A DNA stretch of 25,550 nucleotides. Source: a virus. Below, piece by piece: positions 16,135 through 25,223 of this stretch. The position numbers were made by a program, and so were the translations under genes. Where the stretch lies: IMG/VR virus record IMGVR_UViG_3300042291_001036, positions 1-25,550 of that record; one strand, given 5' to 3'. Numbering within the stretch: position 1 is the stretch's first letter; each line of letters begins with the position of its first letter. Below the pieces are notes generated by a model. It saw only the letters and a program-made list of their open reading frames with translations. It was not told the origin of the DNA and made no database searches.

Positions 16135-16161
16135 TTTTATAACATTCTTTATATACCTATA

Positions 16162-16190
16162 ACTATGATATGCTTTTTATAAAAAGTCAA
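16162..16190 (-). promoter_or_regulatory. Possible promoter of the HNH gene
   Basis: TTGACT at 16185-16190 and CATAGT at 16162-16167 with a 17-bp spacer, minus strand. The -10 box is poor and the leader would be about 20 nt, longer than for most promoters here. Confidence 0.4.
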
Positions 16191-18519: not shown

Positions 18520-19635
18520 TTACTTCAATACTTGATATAGCAGTTTTTTATAATCATCAGTGCTGATGGTCTTGCGATCTAGCATCTTGAATATAATTGC
18601 ACTTCTGCCCGTGCTGCCATATGCTTGTAAGATTTCTTTGGCGGCAATATTACGAGCAATGTTCATACGCTCAGACGCAAACTCAAACAGTGCAGTCATG
18701 ATCTTGTGAACTTCTTTCATAGCATCACAGATGCGCGAAGCGTGTCCAGTTGCCATTGTAGCAATCTCAAAGTCAAACTTTTCGGTAAGATACTCAAAGA
18801 ATTCTACATAACCAGTTGGTTCGTGTGATAATGTGTTACGTGGTATAAACCAATCAATATACACATCAATTATTTTTTCTATGCTAGAAATTTCACTTTT
18901 TGCACGATGTAAAAAAAGATAGCTTGCGGCTTTTACTTTACGAATTTGTTGTTCGTTTCCATAATATACACACAAACCTTCTTGGTCTTTCAACACTTCA
19001 ACCGCCGACTTCATTTCTTCAACAGAGTTGTAAGAGAATGTGCGGGGACGTGGTAAATCCCAACTCTTTGCATACAAGTCCAATACACTCTGCGGAGTAA
19101 GTGTATAATCTGCGTGTCCGATTGCAGCAATCAACTTCATTTCTGGTTCATCGCCATAATTTAGTACAATTCTATTTGTCGGACTCAACCACTCACATAT
19201 AAACGATTGATCGTATGTGTCGGCTTGATTCAACATATCTGCAAACTTTGGATACTTTTGAAGCAAATAGTCAATCTCATACCCATTTGCTTGCTTACGA
19301 GCATCAACAGTTCCGCGTGTACGAATAACAGTATGACCCTTATAGCGAGAAAAGATTAAAGTAGAACCGTCCAACTTTTCCATCAACTTCGCATTTTTTA
19401 GATCAGAAGGTGCTGGAAAAATATCAGGCTTTTCATCATAATTGAAAAATTTCTTGAACGACAGTGAAACAGGATGTCCATCTTTATCCCACAATGAAGA
19501 ACGATAAATAAGGTTCTCTTTATTCCAAGTAGCACCAATATGAATTGGCTGAACCAAAAAACATTCATGTCCACCAACAAAGTGTTGATGAACCATAAAC
19601 GACTCTTTGTCGATGGATTGTAAGTCAATTTTCAC
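18520..19635 (-). CDS. T4 Rnl1-type RNA ligase
   Basis: The 371-residue protein (T4 Rnl1 has 374) carries the nucleotidyltransferase motif I MEKLDGS (Lys87 would be adenylylated), FICEWLSPTNRIVLNY (counterpart of the FEFVAPTNRIVLAY block in T4 Rnl1), motif IV EGLCVYY and motif V IRKVKAASYLFLH. It joins 5'-phosphate to 3'-OH RNA ends, and in T4 it repairs tRNA cut by host anticodon nucleases. The start is GTG at 19635, exactly 6 nt past a CATACT -10 box, so this mRNA should be leaderless. No polynucleotide kinase is in the window. Confidence 0.9.
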   Translation of the reverse strand: MKIDLQSIDKESFMVHQHFVGGHECFLVQPIHIGATWNKENLIYRSSLWDKDGHPVSLSFKKFFNYDEKPDIFPAPSDLKNAKLMEKLDGSTLIFSRYKGHTVIRTRGTVDARKQANGYEIDYLLQKYPKFADMLNQADTYDQSFICEWLSPTNRIVLNYGDEPEMKLIAAIGHADYTLTPQSVLDLYAKSWDLPRPRTFSYNSVEEMKSAVEVLKDQEGLCVYYGNEQQIRKVKAASYLFLHRAKSEISSIEKIIDVYIDWFIPRNTLSHEPTGYVEFFEYLTEKFDFEIATMATGHASRICDAMKEVHKIMTALFEFASERMNIARNIAAKEILQAYGSTGRSAIIFKMLDRKTISTDDYKKLLYQVLK

Positions 19636-20199: not shown

Positions 20200-20227
20200 A
20201 GTATGTCAATTATTTATCAAATGTCAA
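20200..20227 (-). promoter_or_regulatory. Promoter of the 71-aa gene (TTGACA-N16-CATACT)
   Basis: The -35 box is at 20222-20227, inside the end of the UvdE gene, and the -10 box at 20200-20205. The ATG is 40 nt past the -10 box, one of only two units with a clear leader. Confidence 0.7.
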
Positions 20228-21160
20228 TAAGTTTTGACGAGAAATCTTATTTATAGCAGATTCTTTATGCTTAAACTCAAAATCAAGATGCAAATCTTTT
20301 GTATATGTAGAATATACCATAGGTACAAATGTAGGAAAGTCGGCATGAGCACGAGGATTTTTACCAGCAAGTGATTCGCTGAAATGAAACAATGGAACAA
20401 TATTATCTGGCCAAGTAGATACAGATAAATCAAATGCTTGTTGTTCAGTTAGATTTCCGGGATTGCATTTATGGTGCAAATTGTCATAAGTGATTGGAAT
20501 ACCTGTACGCTCGTGGAGATACTCGTGTAGATTATATACAGTCCAACTCTTTAGTTTATCTTCGCACTCGAAGACCAATCTGCTTGTTACAGATTTTGAC
20601 ATGCGTTTGATAACTTTTTCCAATCTATCAATAACTTCACTAAAATTGCCATCATTATAACAATTCATGTGAATATTGATTGGTGCTTCATATGATTGTG
20701 GTAGTTGAAGTAAATCCATAATTATAGCATGTTGTTCAAGGTCGCGAATAGAGTTTTCAGCAACACCATTTTTTGGACTTGCAGGAACCACAAACTGGTC
20801 TGGGTGCATACTGCAACGCACTTTGTTTTGTTTAATAGTAGTAGCACATGCGCTAAACTCTGATATAATATCTGAGAAATTATAAAAATCATCTATGCCA
20901 AATTTCAAATCGGGATGTGTCATCAATGGAAACACATTGCTGCCAATTCTATAATTCCATTTGTTTTTGGCACACTCTTTTATAATAGAGTGAATGGTCT
21001 TGATATTATTGAACGAGCGGTCTGCTAGAATCTTCATTGCTGTGTCCTTGCCCAATTTCTTGTATTGAGCATAAGTCATGGTGTTGAATTTAACACCTTG
21101 GTCTTTTAGACCATTGTGAATACAACAAAGTGAAGGAACTATATTATGTGATAGAATCAT
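20210..21160 (-). CDS. UV-damage endonuclease (UvdE/UvsE family)
   Basis: From the ATG at 21160 the protein has 316 residues and the UvdE TIM-barrel pattern: NIVPSLCCIHNGLKDQGVKF, MTYAQYKKLG, NYRIGSNVFPLMTHP, RCSMHPDQFVVPASP, LVFECEDKLKSW and TYDNLHHKCNP. The His, Glu and Asp residues in these blocks bind the three metal ions of the family. The enzyme nicks 5' to UV photoproducts and starts an excision repair route. An earlier in-frame ATG exists at 21178, but the promoter predicts transcription from about 21161, immediately before the chosen ATG. UvdE is uncommon in phages. Confidence 0.9.
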   Translation of the reverse strand: MILSHNIVPSLCCIHNGLKDQGVKFNTMTYAQYKKLGKDTAMKILADRSFNNIKTIHSIIKECAKNKWNYRIGSNVFPLMTHPDLKFGIDDFYNFSDIISEFSACATTIKQNKVRCSMHPDQFVVPASPKNGVAENSIRDLEQHAIIMDLLQLPQSYEAPINIHMNCYNDGNFSEVIDRLEKVIKRMSKSVTSRLVFECEDKLKSWTVYNLHEYLHERTGIPITYDNLHHKCNPGNLTEQQAFDLSVSTWPDNIVPLFHFSESLAGKNPRAHADFPTFVPMVYSTYTKDLHLDFEFKHKESAINKISRQNLLTFDK

Positions 21161-21167
21161 AATAGTG

Positions 21168-21195
21168 ATATTACACATATGTTGATGTTTGTCAA
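21168..21195 (-). promoter_or_regulatory. Promoter of the UV endonuclease (TTGACA-N16-TAATAT)
   Basis: The -35 box is at 21190-21195 and the -10 box at 21168-21173 on the minus strand. The ATG lies 7 nt beyond, predicting a leaderless mRNA and ruling out the earlier in-frame ATG. Confidence 0.7.
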
Positions 21196-21204
21196 CAATA
21201 CAAT

Positions 21205-21237
21205 AAAAAAAGGACACCATTTACGGTGTCCTTTTTT
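21205..21237 (-). terminator. Intrinsic terminator after the secreted-protein gene
   Basis: A GGACACC/GGTGTCC stem with a 6-nt loop (21212-21231) is flanked by A-run and T-run and is followed by seven T on the minus strand. The flanking A/T pairs make it work in both directions. Confidence 0.85.
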
Positions 21238-21256
21238 GATAAAAACTAACTGATTA

Positions 21257-21970
21257 TTAGAACTTTACAGCCAAACCACCAGACACTCCACTGCTGGTAT
21301 TTCCGGCAGTAAATAGCGTGTCACGGGATTGATATACACCAATATTCAATGTGGCATATTTGGTGTAATATCCAACACCAACTCCAACCAATGCATATTG
21401 CTTTGCATTCTTCAATGCAGCAATTGTGGCGGCACCGGGATCATTGAATCCGTATCCAACGGAAGGAACAATCTTTAGGTGTTGAAAACCAAAAGGAAGT
21501 TTAACATTTGTTTCTACATTATTGGTGTGTAGCTTCAGATCTGAACGACCTGTAATATCCCATACACTATTCTTCCACAACTTACCATCTAGCTTAACAA
21601 ATGGTTCGTTTGTGCTGGCAATGTTGGAAATGCTCTTGCTATAAGAGGAATAAACCGAACCCAAGGTCAAGTTTGCCAAAGGAGCGGTAAACTTATAACC
21701 AACGGTTGTGTCAATTCGCTTTAGTAGTCCAGAACTTACTACGTTCTTTCCCACAGCATTTGCTTGAATAGTATTGAAGGTGCTTGCACCCAATACGAAA
21801 CCTGCAACCTCAACATTTGCACCAACGACTGCAACGTCATTATATGCAACAACACCACGGTCCAAAAACTTGGTGTAATATGTTGCGTCCGCTGTGACGG
21901 TCACAGGCGATGCAGTTAGTGTGAGTGCGGCACATGCTGCCGTAATCATTAATAGTATTTTCTTTGTCAT
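21257..21970 (-). CDS. Secreted protein, probable outer-membrane beta-barrel
   Basis: The 237-residue protein has a signal peptide (basic MTKK, a hydrophobic ILLMITAACAALTL core, then small residues; cleavage probably between 22 and 29). The rest is a series of alternating amphipathic strands (ANVEVAGFVLGAS, TTVGYKFTAPLANLTLGSVY, ALVGVGVGYYTKYATLNIGVY) and ends GGLAVKF with a C-terminal Phe, the usual signal for insertion by the Bam machinery. It should be in the host outer membrane. A phage-made outer-membrane protein could block re-infection or alter uptake. The gene has its own promoter, a 38-nt leader and its own terminator. Confidence 0.75.
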   Translation of the reverse strand: MTKKILLMITAACAALTLTASPVTVTADATYYTKFLDRGVVAYNDVAVVGANVEVAGFVLGASTFNTIQANAVGKNVVSSGLLKRIDTTVGYKFTAPLANLTLGSVYSSYSKSISNIASTNEPFVKLDGKLWKNSVWDITGRSDLKLHTNNVETNVKLPFGFQHLKIVPSVGYGFNDPGAATIAALKNAKQYALVGVGVGYYTKYATLNIGVYQSRDTLFTAGNTSSGVSGGLAVKF

Positions 21971-22014
21971 ATATATTATTGTTTTAATACTTCACAGTTT
22001 GTAAAGTACGAATA

Positions 22015-22042
22015 ACTATACACCAGAAAAGCTTTCGGTCAA
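22015..22042 (-). promoter_or_regulatory. Promoter of the secreted-protein gene (TTGACC-N16-TATAGT)
   Basis: The -35 box is at 22037-22042 and the -10 box at 22015-22020, minus strand. A leader of about 38 nt follows that can form a TACTTTAC/GTGAAGTA hairpin before the ATG at 21970. Confidence 0.75.
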
Positions 22043-22072
22043 GAAAATTTCCTACGTATATATGTTATAAAA

Positions 22073-22464
22073 TGGTGGACTCGCCGGAAGTTGCATCCGG
22101 GTGCTATATAAAAAGCTTACAAACATATACAAGCTTATCTCTTATAATACATCAATGTTTGGTAGAGCACCACATTGAAGTTGAAGTTTAGTATTTGATT
22201 TGTGCTACCATCTTCTATCTCGCACAAACGGCCAGATGATGAACGTTGTTGACTTGTTATCTGTGTCACAAGGACAACGGACAGCCTATTTTATTAGGCT
22301 GCGACAAGTGTCTCGGCTCCGCTGTTCTTGCGAACAGAAAGAAAAGACACCTTTGCAAGATTTCTCTTAGCATTTATGTTTTCCAACGGGTATTATACAG
22401 AGACATTAGACTCTGTGCTTGCGGCTTGTACTCATTTCATAGAGTAGAATCTAAAAACGAGCCC
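22073..22464 (-). ncRNA. ssrA: tmRNA (transfer-messenger RNA, ssrA)
   Basis: The minus strand gives a 392-nt RNA. Its acceptor stem pairs GGGCTCG (22458-22464) with CGAGTCC (22077-22083), including the G3-U70 wobble that identifies alanine acceptors, followed by discriminator A and an encoded CCA. A T-arm (22084-22100: 5-bp stem, 7-nt loop TGCAACT) precedes it, and AGATTCTAC (22444-22452) matches the conserved D-loop block of tmRNAs. A tag frame ends GTC GCA GCC TAA TAA (...LVAA), with the stops in a hairpin loop (22282-22301) as in E. coli helix 5. Downstream helices with complementary loops (CAGAT/ATCTG, TGGTA/TACCA) look like pseudoknots. It would rescue stalled ribosomes with SmpB and tag proteins for proteolysis. 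The resume codon is GCT (nt 94) or GCA (nt 109). Confidence 0.92.
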
Positions 22465-22473
22465 ATGAAAAGA

Positions 22474-22645
22474 AAACATGTAGGGACCAGAGTTCGGGCA
22501 TCTGATACCGGAGTTCCATTCGGGGAATTCGTCCTATCTTCACGACTTCGGCTTTTAAACAAGAAACTTGATGCCTACTATGTTGTCTTGGAAGAATGAC
22601 CGCGAGTTTCTTAAACAGCGGTCCTTTAAACTACCCTACATGTTT
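22474..22645 (-). ncRNA. Structured RNA element upstream of the tmRNA, class unknown
   Basis: A perfect 12-bp helix (22634-22645 with 22474-22485) closes a 172-nt segment. Inside it are a GACCGC/GCGGTC hairpin (22598-22603 with 22618-22623) with an inner GTTT/AAAC stem, a CAAG/CTTG hairpin within a GGC/GCC pair, and a near-perfect hairpin in the middle. No tRNA, 6S RNA or RNase P pattern was recognised. It could be the processed 5' leader of the tmRNA, as it ends 9 nt before the mature 5' end, or a separate RNA. The strand is inferred from the tmRNA. Confidence 0.5.
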
Positions 22646-22669
22646 CAAAATTGATATCAAAGAACTGCT

Positions 22670-22701
22670 ACTATAAGTATCACATTATATGCCGTTGTCA
22701 A
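22670..22701 (-). promoter_or_regulatory. Possible promoter for the tmRNA transcript
   Basis: A perfect TTGACA -35 box lies at 22696-22701 on the minus strand. The nearest good -10 box, TATAGT, is at 22670-22675 with a 20-bp spacer, longer than the 16 bp used elsewhere. So this is a candidate only. Confidence 0.35.
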
Positions 22702-22743
22702 TGTTTTTTATTTTAAACAATTTTTAAAAAATGTCTTTTTCAC

Positions 22744-22771
22744 TTGACTTTTTATATACTTACTCTATTAT
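22744..22771 (+). promoter_or_regulatory. Promoter of the plus-strand gene cluster (TTGACT-N16-TATTAT)
   Basis: The -35 box is at 22744-22749 and the -10 box at 22766-22771. The ATG at 22781 lies 9 nt later. It drives the genes 22781-23695. Confidence 0.75.
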
Positions 22772-22780
22772 TTTCGGTAT

Positions 22781-23059
22781 ATGAATGGTTTTACTCTATA
22801 TAAAAATCCTTGCAGTTGCTGCTCTGAATCTATTGAAGATGCTCGTGCCGAACTTGGTTTGCGAGTATGTTTGCGATGTGCTAAACGAGGTGTATCTCAG
22901 TCAAAATATATGGGTGCTCAAGTATATGAGCACAAAACGGCTGGATTTCTGCAAGTTATGTTACCAGACACATTTGCCGATTTTAAAGCCAAGACATCCC
23001 GCAAGGGACAGTCTAGCACACTTAGAAATGTATTGGTTGGTGGAGGAAGACTACAATGA
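22781..23059 (+). CDS. Small zinc-finger-like protein (92 aa)
   Basis: The N-terminal part contains CSCCSESIEDARAELGLRVC followed by LRCAKRG: two Cys pairs about 17 residues apart, bracketing an ARAELG helix. This resembles short phage proteins with C-x2-C...ARxELG...C-x2-C and a later HKTG turn (here EHKTAGF). It probably binds zinc; whether it contacts nucleic acid or protein is unknown. The ATG is 9 nt after the -10 box. The stop overlaps the next ATG (ATGA), so both genes are translated together. Confidence 0.75.
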   Translation: MNGFTLYKNPCSCCSESIEDARAELGLRVCLRCAKRGVSQSKYMGAQVYEHKTAGFLQVMLPDTFADFKAKTSRKGQSSTLRNVLVGGGRLQ

Positions 23060-23538
23060 AAACAATGAAAACATTTAAATTGCCCACTTGGGCAGAAACA
23101 AACAATGTGACCACTTATATGGACATGTTGAAACACAACATGTCGCGAAAAGACGCGATTGCCAGAGTGAAGGCAAACAACAAAGTTGCCAAATTCTTGA
23201 ACAAGAATGGTTGGACCTTCACCGAAGGTGGGTGTATCGTGGAACATGGTTATGTGCTCAACTTTCGCAAACCAACTGGAATTGTAGCTGACAACAAGGC
23301 TGCTCATCCATATCTTCATTTTGGTTGGTATTGGGACAACTGCGGTGGTCCAGATTTTTGGCGAGGCGACCTTTGGGTTTCGTATAGTTATGATCGCGAG
23401 TTCAAATATCTTGGTCCAGTTGGCTTTTTTAAGATTCATGATATTTTGCGAGGCAACTTGAAAGATTTATATCAGTATGAAAGTCAACTTGTACATGCAC
23501 TGATTTATCAAAACCCTATTATCAATGGAAACAGATAA
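23056..23538 (+). CDS. Hypothetical protein (160 aa)
   Basis: The N-terminus has a short repeat (MKTMKTFKLPTW) and a helix (DMLKHNMSRKDAIARVKANN). The central part is rich in Trp, Tyr and Gly (YLHFGWYWDNCGGPDFWRGDLW) and the end is helical. The many aromatic residues suggest a compact beta domain. No family recognised. It overlaps its upstream partner by 4 bp and the next small gene by 14 bp. A second Met at codon 4 is an alternative start. Confidence 0.7.
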   Translation: MKTMKTFKLPTWAETNNVTTYMDMLKHNMSRKDAIARVKANNKVAKFLNKNGWTFTEGGCIVEHGYVLNFRKPTGIVADNKAAHPYLHFGWYWDNCGGPDFWRGDLWVSYSYDREFKYLGPVGFFKIHDILRGNLKDLYQYESQLVHALIYQNPIINGNR

Positions 23539-23695
23539 CACTATATCTTATACCAAAGAACAAATCAAAAAAGATTTGGAGTATTGGAGTAAAAAGAAAG
23601 AGCACTTTGAGAAGACCAATAATAAAGCTGGTACAAGAGTAGCAAATCTGATGATAGACAAATACTTGGATATTTACAACGACGCAATCATATAA
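23525..23695 (+). CDS. Hypothetical charged helical protein (56 aa)
   Basis: A 56-codon ORF starts inside the end of the preceding gene and encodes METDNTISYTKEQIKKD...LEYWSKKKEHFEK...RVANLMIDKYLDIYNDAII. It is almost wholly helical and charged, a possible small coiled coil. Coding is supported by the 14-bp overlap typical of this region and by the fact that its stop comes just before the next promoter. Confidence 0.6.
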   Translation: METDNTISYTKEQIKKDLEYWSKKKEHFEKTNNKAGTRVANLMIDKYLDIYNDAII

Positions 23696-23699
23696 ACTC

Positions 23700-23727
23700 T
23701 TGACATTGTATAGAATTTATATACAAT
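23700..23727 (+). promoter_or_regulatory. Promoter of the cREC/phosphoesterase unit (TTGACA-N16-TACAAT)
   Basis: The -35 box is at 23700-23705 and the -10 box at 23722-23727. The ATG at 23734 is 6 nt past the -10 box, exactly at the predicted transcription start. Confidence 0.8.
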
Positions 23728-23733
23728 GAAATG

Positions 23734-24093
23734 ATGTATAAATTATTTATTGATGATGAACGTCTGCCAAAAAATGTTAATTGGGTAGAAATGCCACTTG
23801 GTCCTTGGATTATAGCAAGAAATTATGATGATTTTGTAAAATATATCATGCAAAATGGGTTGCCGTCGTTTGTGAGTTTTGACCATGATTTGGGAATTGA
23901 ACATTATATTGTTGGTGCTCCAAAATATAACGAATATAAAGAAAAAACGGGGTATGATTGTGCCAAATGGTTGGTAGAATATTGTATGAACAATAATCTT
24001 GAATTTCCCGATTATCAAGTTCACAGTATGAATCCTATTGGCAGAGAGAACATTCGTAGTTATATTGAATCATACAAGAAAAGCAGAAAATGA
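23734..24093 (+). CDS. Cyclic-phosphate-processing receiver-domain (cREC) protein
   Basis: The 119-residue protein has the cREC pattern: MYKLFIDDERLP at the start (acidic pair of a receiver fold), WIIARNYDDFVKYI, PSFVSFDHDLG with a DHDLG block, TGYDCAKWLVEYC and VHSMNPIGRENI. The His residues in DHD and HS distinguish cREC from response-regulator receivers; the family is predicted to process cyclic phosphates on RNA or nucleotides. A Met one codon upstream (23731) is possible, but the promoter places +1 at 23734. It overlaps the phosphoesterase gene by 4 bp, so the two enzymes probably work on the same substrate. Confidence 0.82.
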   Translation: MYKLFIDDERLPKNVNWVEMPLGPWIIARNYDDFVKYIMQNGLPSFVSFDHDLGIEHYIVGAPKYNEYKEKTGYDCAKWLVEYCMNNNLEFPDYQVHSMNPIGRENIRSYIESYKKSRK

Positions 24094-24740
24094 AGAAAAT
24101 TAGTTTAAAATCAATTGACCAAAAGATTTGGTTTGTGAGTGATCTGCATTTGGGTCATGACAAACCATTTATTCTCGGTCCTCGTAAATATACAAATGTT
24201 AGTGAAGCATATTCTCATACACATCAAATGTTGAATGAGCATATTGGACCAAATGATATTGTGTTCAATCTTGGCGATGCCGTGATTGGTGCTGGACCAA
24301 ATTCTATGGAATATGCTAAACGCATTGTGCATCTGCCTTGCAAGCATCAATATTTTATTTGGGGCAATCATAATGCTGGTATTCATCAATTATATGATGA
24401 CTGCCGCAAAGACATTGGATTGTTGGCAGATGATATAGAAATGTATCCATTGAATTATCCAAACAGTCCATTCACATTTCTTGGTCATTATGCAGAAATT
24501 ACAATTGATGGCAGAGTAGTTGTGTTGACTCATTATCCAATTGCTTCATGGAATCATATCAGCAAAGGCGCGTATCATATTCACGGTCATTGTCACCGCA
24601 ATCTAAAAGAAGATACAACCCTACAAAGATTGGATGTTGGTTGGGAGTGGAAACGTCGTCCAGTTGAATGGAATGAAATTGTGCGCGAATTGAGTCCGCG
24701 CAGCACAATTGCGCCAGATCATCACGGCAAAGATACATAA
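24090..24740 (+). CDS. Calcineurin-like metallophosphoesterase
   Basis: The 216-residue protein shows all five metal-binding blocks in order: DLHLGH (Asp18, His20), NLGDAV (Asp63), WGNHN (Asn93, His94), LTHYP and HGHCH. It is a phosphodiesterase or phosphatase with two metals. The small size and single domain fit phage and bacterial enzymes acting on nucleotides or RNA ends. Translational coupling with the cREC protein and the RNA ligase and macro-domain genes nearby favour a role in RNA end repair, though the substrate is not proven. It is followed by a strong terminator. Confidence 0.88.
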   Translation: MKKISLKSIDQKIWFVSDLHLGHDKPFILGPRKYTNVSEAYSHTHQMLNEHIGPNDIVFNLGDAVIGAGPNSMEYAKRIVHLPCKHQYFIWGNHNAGIHQLYDDCRKDIGLLADDIEMYPLNYPNSPFTFLGHYAEITIDGRVVVLTHYPIASWNHISKGAYHIHGHCHRNLKEDTTLQRLDVGWEWKRRPVEWNEIVRELSPRSTIAPDHHGKDT

Positions 24741-24743
24741 AAG

Positions 24744-24767
24744 AAAACCCACCTTTTGGTGGGTTTT
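24744..24767. terminator. Bidirectional intrinsic terminator
   Basis: A perfect 10-bp stem (AAAACCCACC with its complement) and a TTTT loop have a T-run on both strands. It ends the plus-strand phosphoesterase transcript and the convergent fibre-like gene. Confidence 0.9.
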
Positions 24768-24770
24768 TTG

Positions 24771-25223
24771 TTATACTCGACTCAATTCAGTCAAGATAAA
24801 GTTTGGGCTGGAGGCTTCTCCAAAATCGGTGTTTCCACCACCCATTGCATTTACTTTCATATAATATGTATATGTACCGGCTGAAACGGGATCTATGCAA
24901 CTGATGTTATATGGAACATTCTCGTTTGCATCAGAGCTTTCATATTGAATAGTTTGGCATAATGCCGTTGTGTCTCTGTATAATTGAATAATACCATACG
25001 TGCCAACGGCGGATGGATTTGCATCACCTGAGCATATAATCAATACAGGATTGCCGTATGTAGTGATGCTGCCACTTACAACAGTCTTTGGAAATGTACC
25101 TCCGGTAGCTATTGTTTTTTTACCTTGTGTACCTTGATAATAGTTTGCAGTACTGCCATAAGCAGGTGCGATTGATGCTGTCATCATTTCATTGTTTGGG
25201 CCGGGTATCATTGTCATATACAT
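24771..25223 (-). CDS. Virion fibre/decoration-like beta-sandwich protein
   Basis: The 150-residue protein has a low-complexity Gly/Ser/Thr/Asn head (about residues 1-45). It is followed by one beta-sandwich-like domain with SGSITTYGNPVLIICSGDANP, IIQLYRDTTALCQTI, ENVPYNISCIDPVSAGTYTY and NTDFGEASSPNFILTEL. This repeating pattern occurs at the ends of phage tail fibres and decoration proteins. It probably sits on the particle and may contact the host or other subunits. The start at 25223 is 6 nt after a TATAAT box. Confidence 0.7.
   Translation of the reverse strand: MYMTMIPGPNNEMMTASIAPAYGSTANYYQGTQGKKTIATGGTFPKTVVSGSITTYGNPVLIICSGDANPSAVGTYGIIQLYRDTTALCQTIQYESSDANENVPYNISCIDPVSAGTYTYYMKVNAMGGGNTDFGEASSPNFILTELSRV

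Follow-up and report, generated by a model that had tools for sequence, protein, structure and literature searches.

A complete tmRNA gene behind a promoter-like site, a boxA-like element and a conserved leader RNA in a lineage of phages

The window analysed here is a whole viral record of 25,550 nt (IMG/VR IMGVR_UViG_3300042291_001036). Searching it with the Rfam model of tmRNA (RF00023), the RNA that frees stuck ribosomes, gave a minus-strand match from 22464 to 22073 of 68.2 bits (E 8.2e-25; cut-off 47 bits) that covers model positions 1–374 of 374; no other Rfam family matched the window above its cut-off. A sequence-only reading had proposed a phage-encoded tmRNA (ssrA) at 22073–22464, and the Infernal match coincides exactly with that interval. 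The 7-bp acceptor stem with G3-U70, A73 and encoded CCA, the 5-7-5 T-arm, the total length of 392 nt and the tag frame followed by TAATAA in helix 5 on which that reading relied are all legible in the sequence (Table 1), and the pseudoknot complementarity that it described is backed by covariation among 23 distinct sequences. The linear, one-piece order across the whole model rules out a two-piece (permuted) tmRNA. The minus-strand fold was more stable than 100 of 100 shuffled sequences (z −4.89). The CCA end is encoded in the window, but not in the relatives L145 and L196.

Table 1 Features of the tmRNA locus in the window, with the evidence for each
Feature	Position	Strand	Basis
tmRNA (ssrA), one-piece, 392 nt	22073..22464	-	RF00023 full model; covariation, 71 pairs, 23 distinct sequences
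Acceptor stem, 5′ strand GGGCUCG	22458..22464	-	Partner 22083-22077
Acceptor stem, 3′ strand (CGAGUCC), A73 and encoded CCA	22073..22083	-	Sequence; covariation
T-arm, UGCAACU loop	22084..22100	-	Both-side changes in 5/5 stem pairs
Pseudoknot 1	22382..22415	-	Both-side changes in 1/5 (helix 2) and 3/7 (helix 3) pairs
Resume codon GCU	22371	-	Sequence
Tag reading frame AKRNLAKVSFLSVRKNSGAETLVAA	22297..22371	-	Sequence; ARAGORN calls the same tag in relative L121
Possible short hairpin around resume codon (GCUAAGAGAAAUCUUGC)	22355..22371	-	Predicted pairs
Hairpin within tag frame, GCAA apical loop (moderate support)	22306..22352	-	Folding, synonymous controls, covariation
Helix 5 with TAATAA stop codons (22296-22291)	22282..22301	-	Covariation (helix 4)
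Pseudoknots 2, 3 and 4	22139..22279	-	Covariation (helices 5-11)
Leader RNA, about 170 nt, structured	22476..22647	-	Covariation; model R1; no Rfam match
GTTCTTTGA, boxA-like element	22657..22665	-	Upstream of 23/26 distinct tmRNAs
Promoter-like TTGACA-N16-TACTTAT	22673..22701	-	Pattern TTGACN{14,19}ATANTTAT

We gathered 75 related viral records by way of two neighbouring genes, encoding an RNA ligase (18520–19635) and UvdE (20210–21220). RF00023 passed its cut-off in 42 of these (32 of 50 and 10 of 25), which with the window makes 43 records and 24 distinct sequences; two more from a scan for the tag pattern (L194 and L196, see below) brought the distinct tmRNAs to 26. Those with a tag beginning AKRNLAK (23 of the 26; 54.6 to 99.7% identical) were aligned. 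RNAalifold predicted 77 pairs on this alignment, 54 of them with compensatory change. We also wrote out 71 pairs, pseudoknots included, from the window sequence after the alignment had been seen. Across the 23 sequences 96.1% of cells were paired, as against 35.8–45.1% for slid versions of the structure, and both sides had changed in 46 of the 71 pairs. The covariation score was 0.467, compared with 0.175 in shuffles (0 of 500 reached it) and at most 0.095 in slides. The four pseudoknots correspond to helices 2–3, 5–7, 8–9 and 10–11; in pseudoknot 2 the inner helix shows no variation, and each of the remaining helices 5–11 contains pairs that change on both sides. Both-side changes were found in five of the seven acceptor-stem pairs, and G3-U70 in 23 of 23 sequences. 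In one relative (L135, record G041) the acceptor stem has been exchanged at four of its seven pairs, to GUGGCCG/CGGCUAC, with G3-U70 kept. Given the covariation of the 71 pairs, and given that G3-U70 stays constant while neighbouring pairs switch, we conclude that selection maintains the gene as a complete tmRNA.

The elbow formed by the D-loop and T-loop departs from this picture of constancy in part of the lineage. The conserved D-loop block named by the sequence-only reading is present, but reads AG in the window and GG in relatives. D-loop GG and T-loop UUC, which are the general tmRNA consensus and are usual but not defining, occur together in 23 of the 26 distinct tmRNAs; the other three (the window, L043 and L140) combine AG with UGC, and no sequence has a single change. 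In tRNA numbering the T-loop difference is a U to G change at position 55, and a G18-U55 contact is swapped for A18-G55. The three sequences form one clade, and the change possibly arose once. Membership of the Rfam family does not hang on these letters, and the window is therefore still filed as a tmRNA. ARAGORN, suggested earlier as a check, called no gene anywhere in the window. The program called a tmRNA in 15 of the 18 relatives given to it and missed 4 of the 19 copies in all: the window, L140, L132, which has a T-stem mismatch, and L135, with its exchanged acceptor stem. The elbow change may explain the misses of the window and L140. We did not count the ARAGORN miss as a refutation, since Infernal detects the gene and ARAGORN itself recognises an orthologue, L121, with an identical tag peptide. 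With 4 of 19 copies missed, counts of phage tmRNAs made with ARAGORN alone may be low.

The tag encoded in the window is 25 amino acids long and ends in LVAA; tags across the lineage have 22–28 residues. This length is not exceptional, since known tmRNA tags span 8–35 residues (PMC8012679). AKRNLAK forms the first seven residues in 23 of the 26 distinct sequences, and codons 2–4 are identical in all 23, wobble positions included. The ends are more varied, with LVAA in nine of the 23, LAAA in eight, VAVA in three, AVAA in two and LSVA in one. A scan for the AKRNLAK pattern in a collection spanning 84,980 species of bacteria and archaea matched two stretches; neither has a tmRNA match, and we read both as chance and rejected them as a bacterial source of the tag. 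The same scan of viral contigs returned 45 stretches, 38 of them from records in which the tmRNA had already been found, judging by eye from the contig names. Rfam tmRNA matches were found in L194, L196 and L205, and L175 holds a tmRNA copy cut off at the end of the stretch; L179, L182 and L207, with no tmRNA match, were read as chance. Since tmRNAs with the AKRNLAK tag were found in viral records only, the lineage looks phage-specific rather than recently copied from a host.

The tag frame also appears to be folded. Compared with GC-matched synonymous controls, the tag core of the window had a z of −3.13 (mean −1.94 for 16 distinct cores), and with codons pooled from tags a z of −3.42 (mean −1.72); 16 of 16 distinct cores were more stable than the control mean. 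Several lay near zero, namely L146 (−0.51), L113 (−0.55) and L119 (−0.96) with GC-matched controls, and L146 (−0.14) and L113 (−0.55) with pooled codons. When the hairpin structure of the window was applied to ten distinct 25-residue cores, 75.8% of cells were paired, compared with 71.2% in shuffles. None of 500 shuffles attained its covariation score of 0.281, nor did any slide (at most 0.207); the sequences are related, however, and a structure taken from the window has an advantage over its slid versions. Pairs changing on both sides numbered five, against 3.3 in shuffles, and 77 of 500 shuffles did as well. RNAalifold on the whole tmRNA alignment, which is poor here because of indels in the tag, did not predict the hairpin. 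Tags of outgroups tested with the same kind of controls gave z of −1.21 (L143), −1.63 (L144) and −1.83 (L145), so that tag frames outside the AKRNLAK type also show folding, of a milder degree. We conclude that a hairpin within the tag frame is moderately supported. The possible hairpin around the resume codon has no covariation, because its predicted pairs are invariant. By comparison, a published account presents the mRNA-like region as an open reading frame that precedes helix 5; a helix close to the resume codon has weak support in E. coli (PMC1168896).

Upstream of the tmRNA lies a promoter-like site. The pattern TTGAC-N14-19-ATANTTAT was observed three times in the window, with 0.09 expected: before the tmRNA unit, before the gene that follows the tmRNA and before an HNH endonuclease gene. 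The second of these sites (22012–22042, minus) lies between the tmRNA and gene 21970–21257, whose product has a signal-peptide-like start and matched neither PHROG nor Pfam families at E 0.001; the third (16159–16190, minus) is directly upstream of the endonuclease gene, 16134–15478. The promoter pattern precedes 24 of the 26 distinct tmRNAs. In 23 of the 26, comprising all 23 of the AKRNLAK type, it is followed by GTTCTTTGA at 35–36 nt, start to start, and in the related record G015 the promoter and GTTCTTTGA also stand directly before a tRNA-Leu. GTTCTTTGA resembles a boxA. Leaders of rRNA operons carry boxA, and we looked for 16S rRNA in seven genomes, of which six belong to the Flavobacterium phylum; in the only one where 16S was found, a member of that phylum, the 9-mer starts about 75 nt before it. 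The phage locus thus resembles an rRNA operon leader in placing a promoter and then GTTCTTTGA before an untranslated RNA; it differs in having a phage tmRNA downstream. By analogy, we propose that the phage unit may use rRNA-style antitermination of untranslated RNA. We found no boxA reports with GTTCTTTGA in the open-access literature.

Directly before the tmRNA is a structured leader RNA. In an alignment of 12 sequences, the 36 pairs predicted for it, in six helices, were paired in 97.7% of cells and changed on both sides in 25 cases. The covariation score was 0.488, whereas shuffles gave 0.260 and slides no more than 0.125; over slides the structure is favoured, since it was derived from the same alignment. 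The motifs AGUAGG, CCGAA and GAUAGG are invariant across the 12 sequences. The single sequence showed only weak folding, with a z of −1.83, and 8 of 200 shuffles matched its stability. An Rfam search of 22000–22800 returned nothing overlapping the leader up to E 5, riboswitches included. AGUAGG...CCGAAG has what we take to be a short resemblance to the glnA glutamine riboswitch; we rejected that identity because no Rfam model matched up to E 5. A U-rich run after the closing helix looks terminator-like to the eye, and a terminator scan of 21900–22900 gave no terminator-like site.

A model of the leader (R1) matched 39 of the 43 tmRNA-bearing records, among which those that supplied the 12 aligned sequences match by construction; five matches were weak, at 31–39 bits (G017, G019, G023, G051 and G066). 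All 39 lie no more than 17 nt before the tmRNA. Of nine records in which the gap was measured, eight have 9–17 nt and one, G066, has none, so that the two touch. R1 was not found in G064, where the promoter adjoins the tmRNA, nor in G068, G073 and G075. In locus L146 the leader is missing, and the promoter, GTTCTTTGA and the tmRNA remain. In L145 (G073) the space between promoter and tmRNA holds another RNA-like sequence, about 80 nt long, with no Rfam match above cut-off. Ten further records in the R1 search gave no credible match; the marginal one among them, in Microcystis phage Mel-JY01 (E 0.0099), was judged chance once the region was read. Among 99 genomes of the Flavobacterium phylum the leader was found in none (27 candidates per genome scored, with strict filters and no positive control). 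A wider scan of viral contigs for the leader motifs returned 36 stretches, 33 of them in known tmRNA records (contig names compared); the other three (L274, L276 and L278) matched neither R1 nor Rfam.

The position of the unit is fixed. We examined loci with a UvdE of at least 60% identity and at least 1,500 nt of upstream sequence, 61 loci in 38 distinct records. With HMMs made from the alignments, the tmRNA was found in 38 of the 38 eligible records and the leader in 37. The distance from the end of the tmRNA to uvdE was 0.83–0.89 kb in 29 records and 1.6–2.2 kb in nine. Among ten loci with more distant UvdE (38–50%), only L096 has a tmRNA within the stretch covered; of the nine remaining records, three (G068, G073 and G075) carry one elsewhere.

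The attribution of the gene to a phage was borne out by G015, a related record of 297 kb with a phage large terminase. Among the matches listed, this terminase is 55.9% identical to that of Mel-JY01, recorded on a cyanobacterium, and 51.1% to that of Flavobacterium phage immuto. The tmRNA model had no match in immuto or RM378, and only a 17-nt piece below cut-off in Mel-JY01. G001 (60,999 bases), a longer record from almost the same phage, whose tmRNA, RNA ligase and UvdE are identical to those of the window, has 36 tRNAs for 20 amino acids in its first 40 kb, and G015 has 30 tRNAs in the 40 kb examined. A small protein of the window (23731–24093, plus) matches Pfam cREC_REC, a cyclic-phosphate processing receiver domain; together with the RNA ligase it could provide RNA repair functions. 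SmpB (PF01668) was found in 0 of the 43 tmRNA-bearing records, a set with many fragments and no record listed as near-complete; the control search was positive in 10 of 14 genomes, the four others being archaea. The phage may thus not supply the whole rescue system. Shine-Dalgarno-like motifs preceded few open reading frames of at least 150 amino acids (2 of 27 in the window, 1 of 26 in G015 and 3 of 30 in G001; the background was 4.1% in the window and about 4% across the three stretches). Cleavage of mRNA or leaderless initiation had been raised earlier as a possible cause of stalling; a scarcity of these motifs is no sign of leaderless messages and would also be expected of a Bacteroidota host. 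We infer that the host probably belongs to the Bacteroidota.

Several known systems resemble parts of this locus. Phage-borne tmRNA copies, which the sequence-only reading had called known, are indeed reported in 402 of 18,146 phages (PMC9004378), and ten tmRNA-bearing phages had been listed in 2014 (PMC4131195). Mycobacteriophage Bxz1 and other phages likewise carry a complete tmRNA in a tailed phage; the accessible text of these two sources describes no leader RNA, which is present here (PMC4131195, PMC9004378). OM43 phage Melnitz also has a structured RNA, a glutamine riboswitch, with its tmRNA, but that tmRNA is two-piece whereas the one in the window is one-piece, and the leader here has no Rfam match to E 5 (PMC9004378). 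Huge phages likewise encode tmRNA among translation genes; they are described as having SmpB with it (PMC7162821), in contrast to 0 of 43 records, many of them fragments, here. Compared with the RF00023 family at large, the window has the same architecture from acceptor G3-U70 through four pseudoknots, and differs in its lower score (68.2 bits versus 105–198 bits in 60 of 61 Flavobacterium-phylum genomes), tags of 22–28 residues, a seemingly folded tag frame and, in one clade, an altered elbow. Region 21200–24800 had no nucleotide match at E 1e-5 among 50,697 phage records, and against named phages the tmRNA at E 10 gave only 28–33-nt pieces in cyanophages. In the open-access literature we found no report of a folded tag frame or of an RNA preceding a phage tmRNA. 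As far as these literature searches show, what is new is the AKRNLAK lineage with its apparently folded tag frame, its elbow swap and above all the leader RNA and the arrangement of its promoter. The sequence-only reading had mentioned neither the leader nor the promoter nor a fold within the tag frame.

We met other tmRNA-like RNAs in a 484-kb phage, LR756508.1 (W03). One is a 112-nt match to the tmRNA model (58.2 bits) at 414804–414915 (locus L229, 1501–1612), by eye a tRNA-like domain alone with G3-U70, resembling the domain-only RNA of phage DS6A. The same phage has a full-length tmRNA match; at 92434–92880 (locus L227) ARAGORN gives a tag of 8 amino acids, and by eye a 32-residue tag ending in KPAAV fits better.

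Taken together, the data make it likely that the locus is a unit of a large Bacteroidota phage, dedicated to untranslated RNA and consisting of promoter, boxA-like GTTCTTTGA, leader and tmRNA, that belongs to a phage kit of translation RNAs and serves ribosome rescue. Transcription would start at the promoter and run through GTTCTTTGA, the leader and the tmRNA, and processing of the transcript would yield the 392-nt RNA. The host would alanylate it by way of G3-U70. Once charged, the tmRNA would associate with host SmpB, move into stalled ribosomes and append the 25-residue tag ending in LVAA, and host proteases would degrade the tagged protein. The company of a near-full tRNA set suggests a purpose, namely that translation is kept running with phage-made RNAs; tmRNA and tRNAs would form a phage-supplied kit that keeps ribosomes in service as host RNAs disappear or come under attack.

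Other readings of the gene itself fare poorly. Prophages integrate at ssrA and carry ssrA fragments (PMC9004378), and the tmRNA might on that account be a host copy or attachment-site remnant without phage function. We regard this as very improbable: the gene is full-length, with four pseudoknots under pair-by-pair selection, it occupies one fixed place in every eligible record, and neither of the two matches to its tag start in bacteria and archaea has a tmRNA match. Somewhat less remote, though still improbable, is the idea of a decoy RNA that would bind SmpB and so block trans-translation by the host, in the manner reported for the domain-only RNA of DS6A; a short RNA of the DS6A type inhibits tmRNA (PMC4131195, PMC11915505). 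The altered elbow of the window's clade would fit a decoy, as would the lack of SmpB in the 43 records, many of them fragmentary; a decoy, however, needs no tag frame, no stops in helix 5 and no four pseudoknots, all of which have been kept.

The alternatives for the two additional structures are stronger competitors, and we judge each of them unlikely rather than implausible. The tag-frame hairpin might be an unselected by-product of amino-acid and codon composition, as the cores near zero (L146, L113 and L119), the unexceptional count of both-side changes, the RNAalifold result and the use of related sequences with a window-derived structure would allow. Against this, all 16 cores lie below the control mean with both types of control, and no shuffle or slide reached the covariation score. 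With about the same probability, the leader is just a 5′ stretch of the tmRNA precursor that maturation cuts away, without a role of its own; its close abutment on the tmRNA fits this idea, as does the survival of promoter, GTTCTTTGA and tmRNA without it in L146. However, both-side changes in 25 of 36 pairs and three invariant motifs exceed what a discarded spacer needs. We continue to favour a rescue unit with a structured leader as part of the phage's translation kit. A bolder version can be held only tentatively: that this is an undescribed two-RNA module in which a leader of a new family, fixed ahead of a tmRNA lineage confined to phages and transcribed from an rRNA-like promoter and boxA, governs the timing of a phage takeover of ribosome rescue, the folded tag frame and re-wired elbow perhaps conferring RNase resistance or marking a separate SmpB-partnered version beside the host tmRNA.

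Phage tmRNAs are listed in databases. Here is a lineage with a tmRNA in every record able to show it, its own promoter-like site, a near-full tRNA set and a conserved RNA alongside. It makes several ideas testable: that phages replace host translation RNAs wholesale, that they borrow rRNA-style antitermination for untranslated RNA, and that a tag message may fold.
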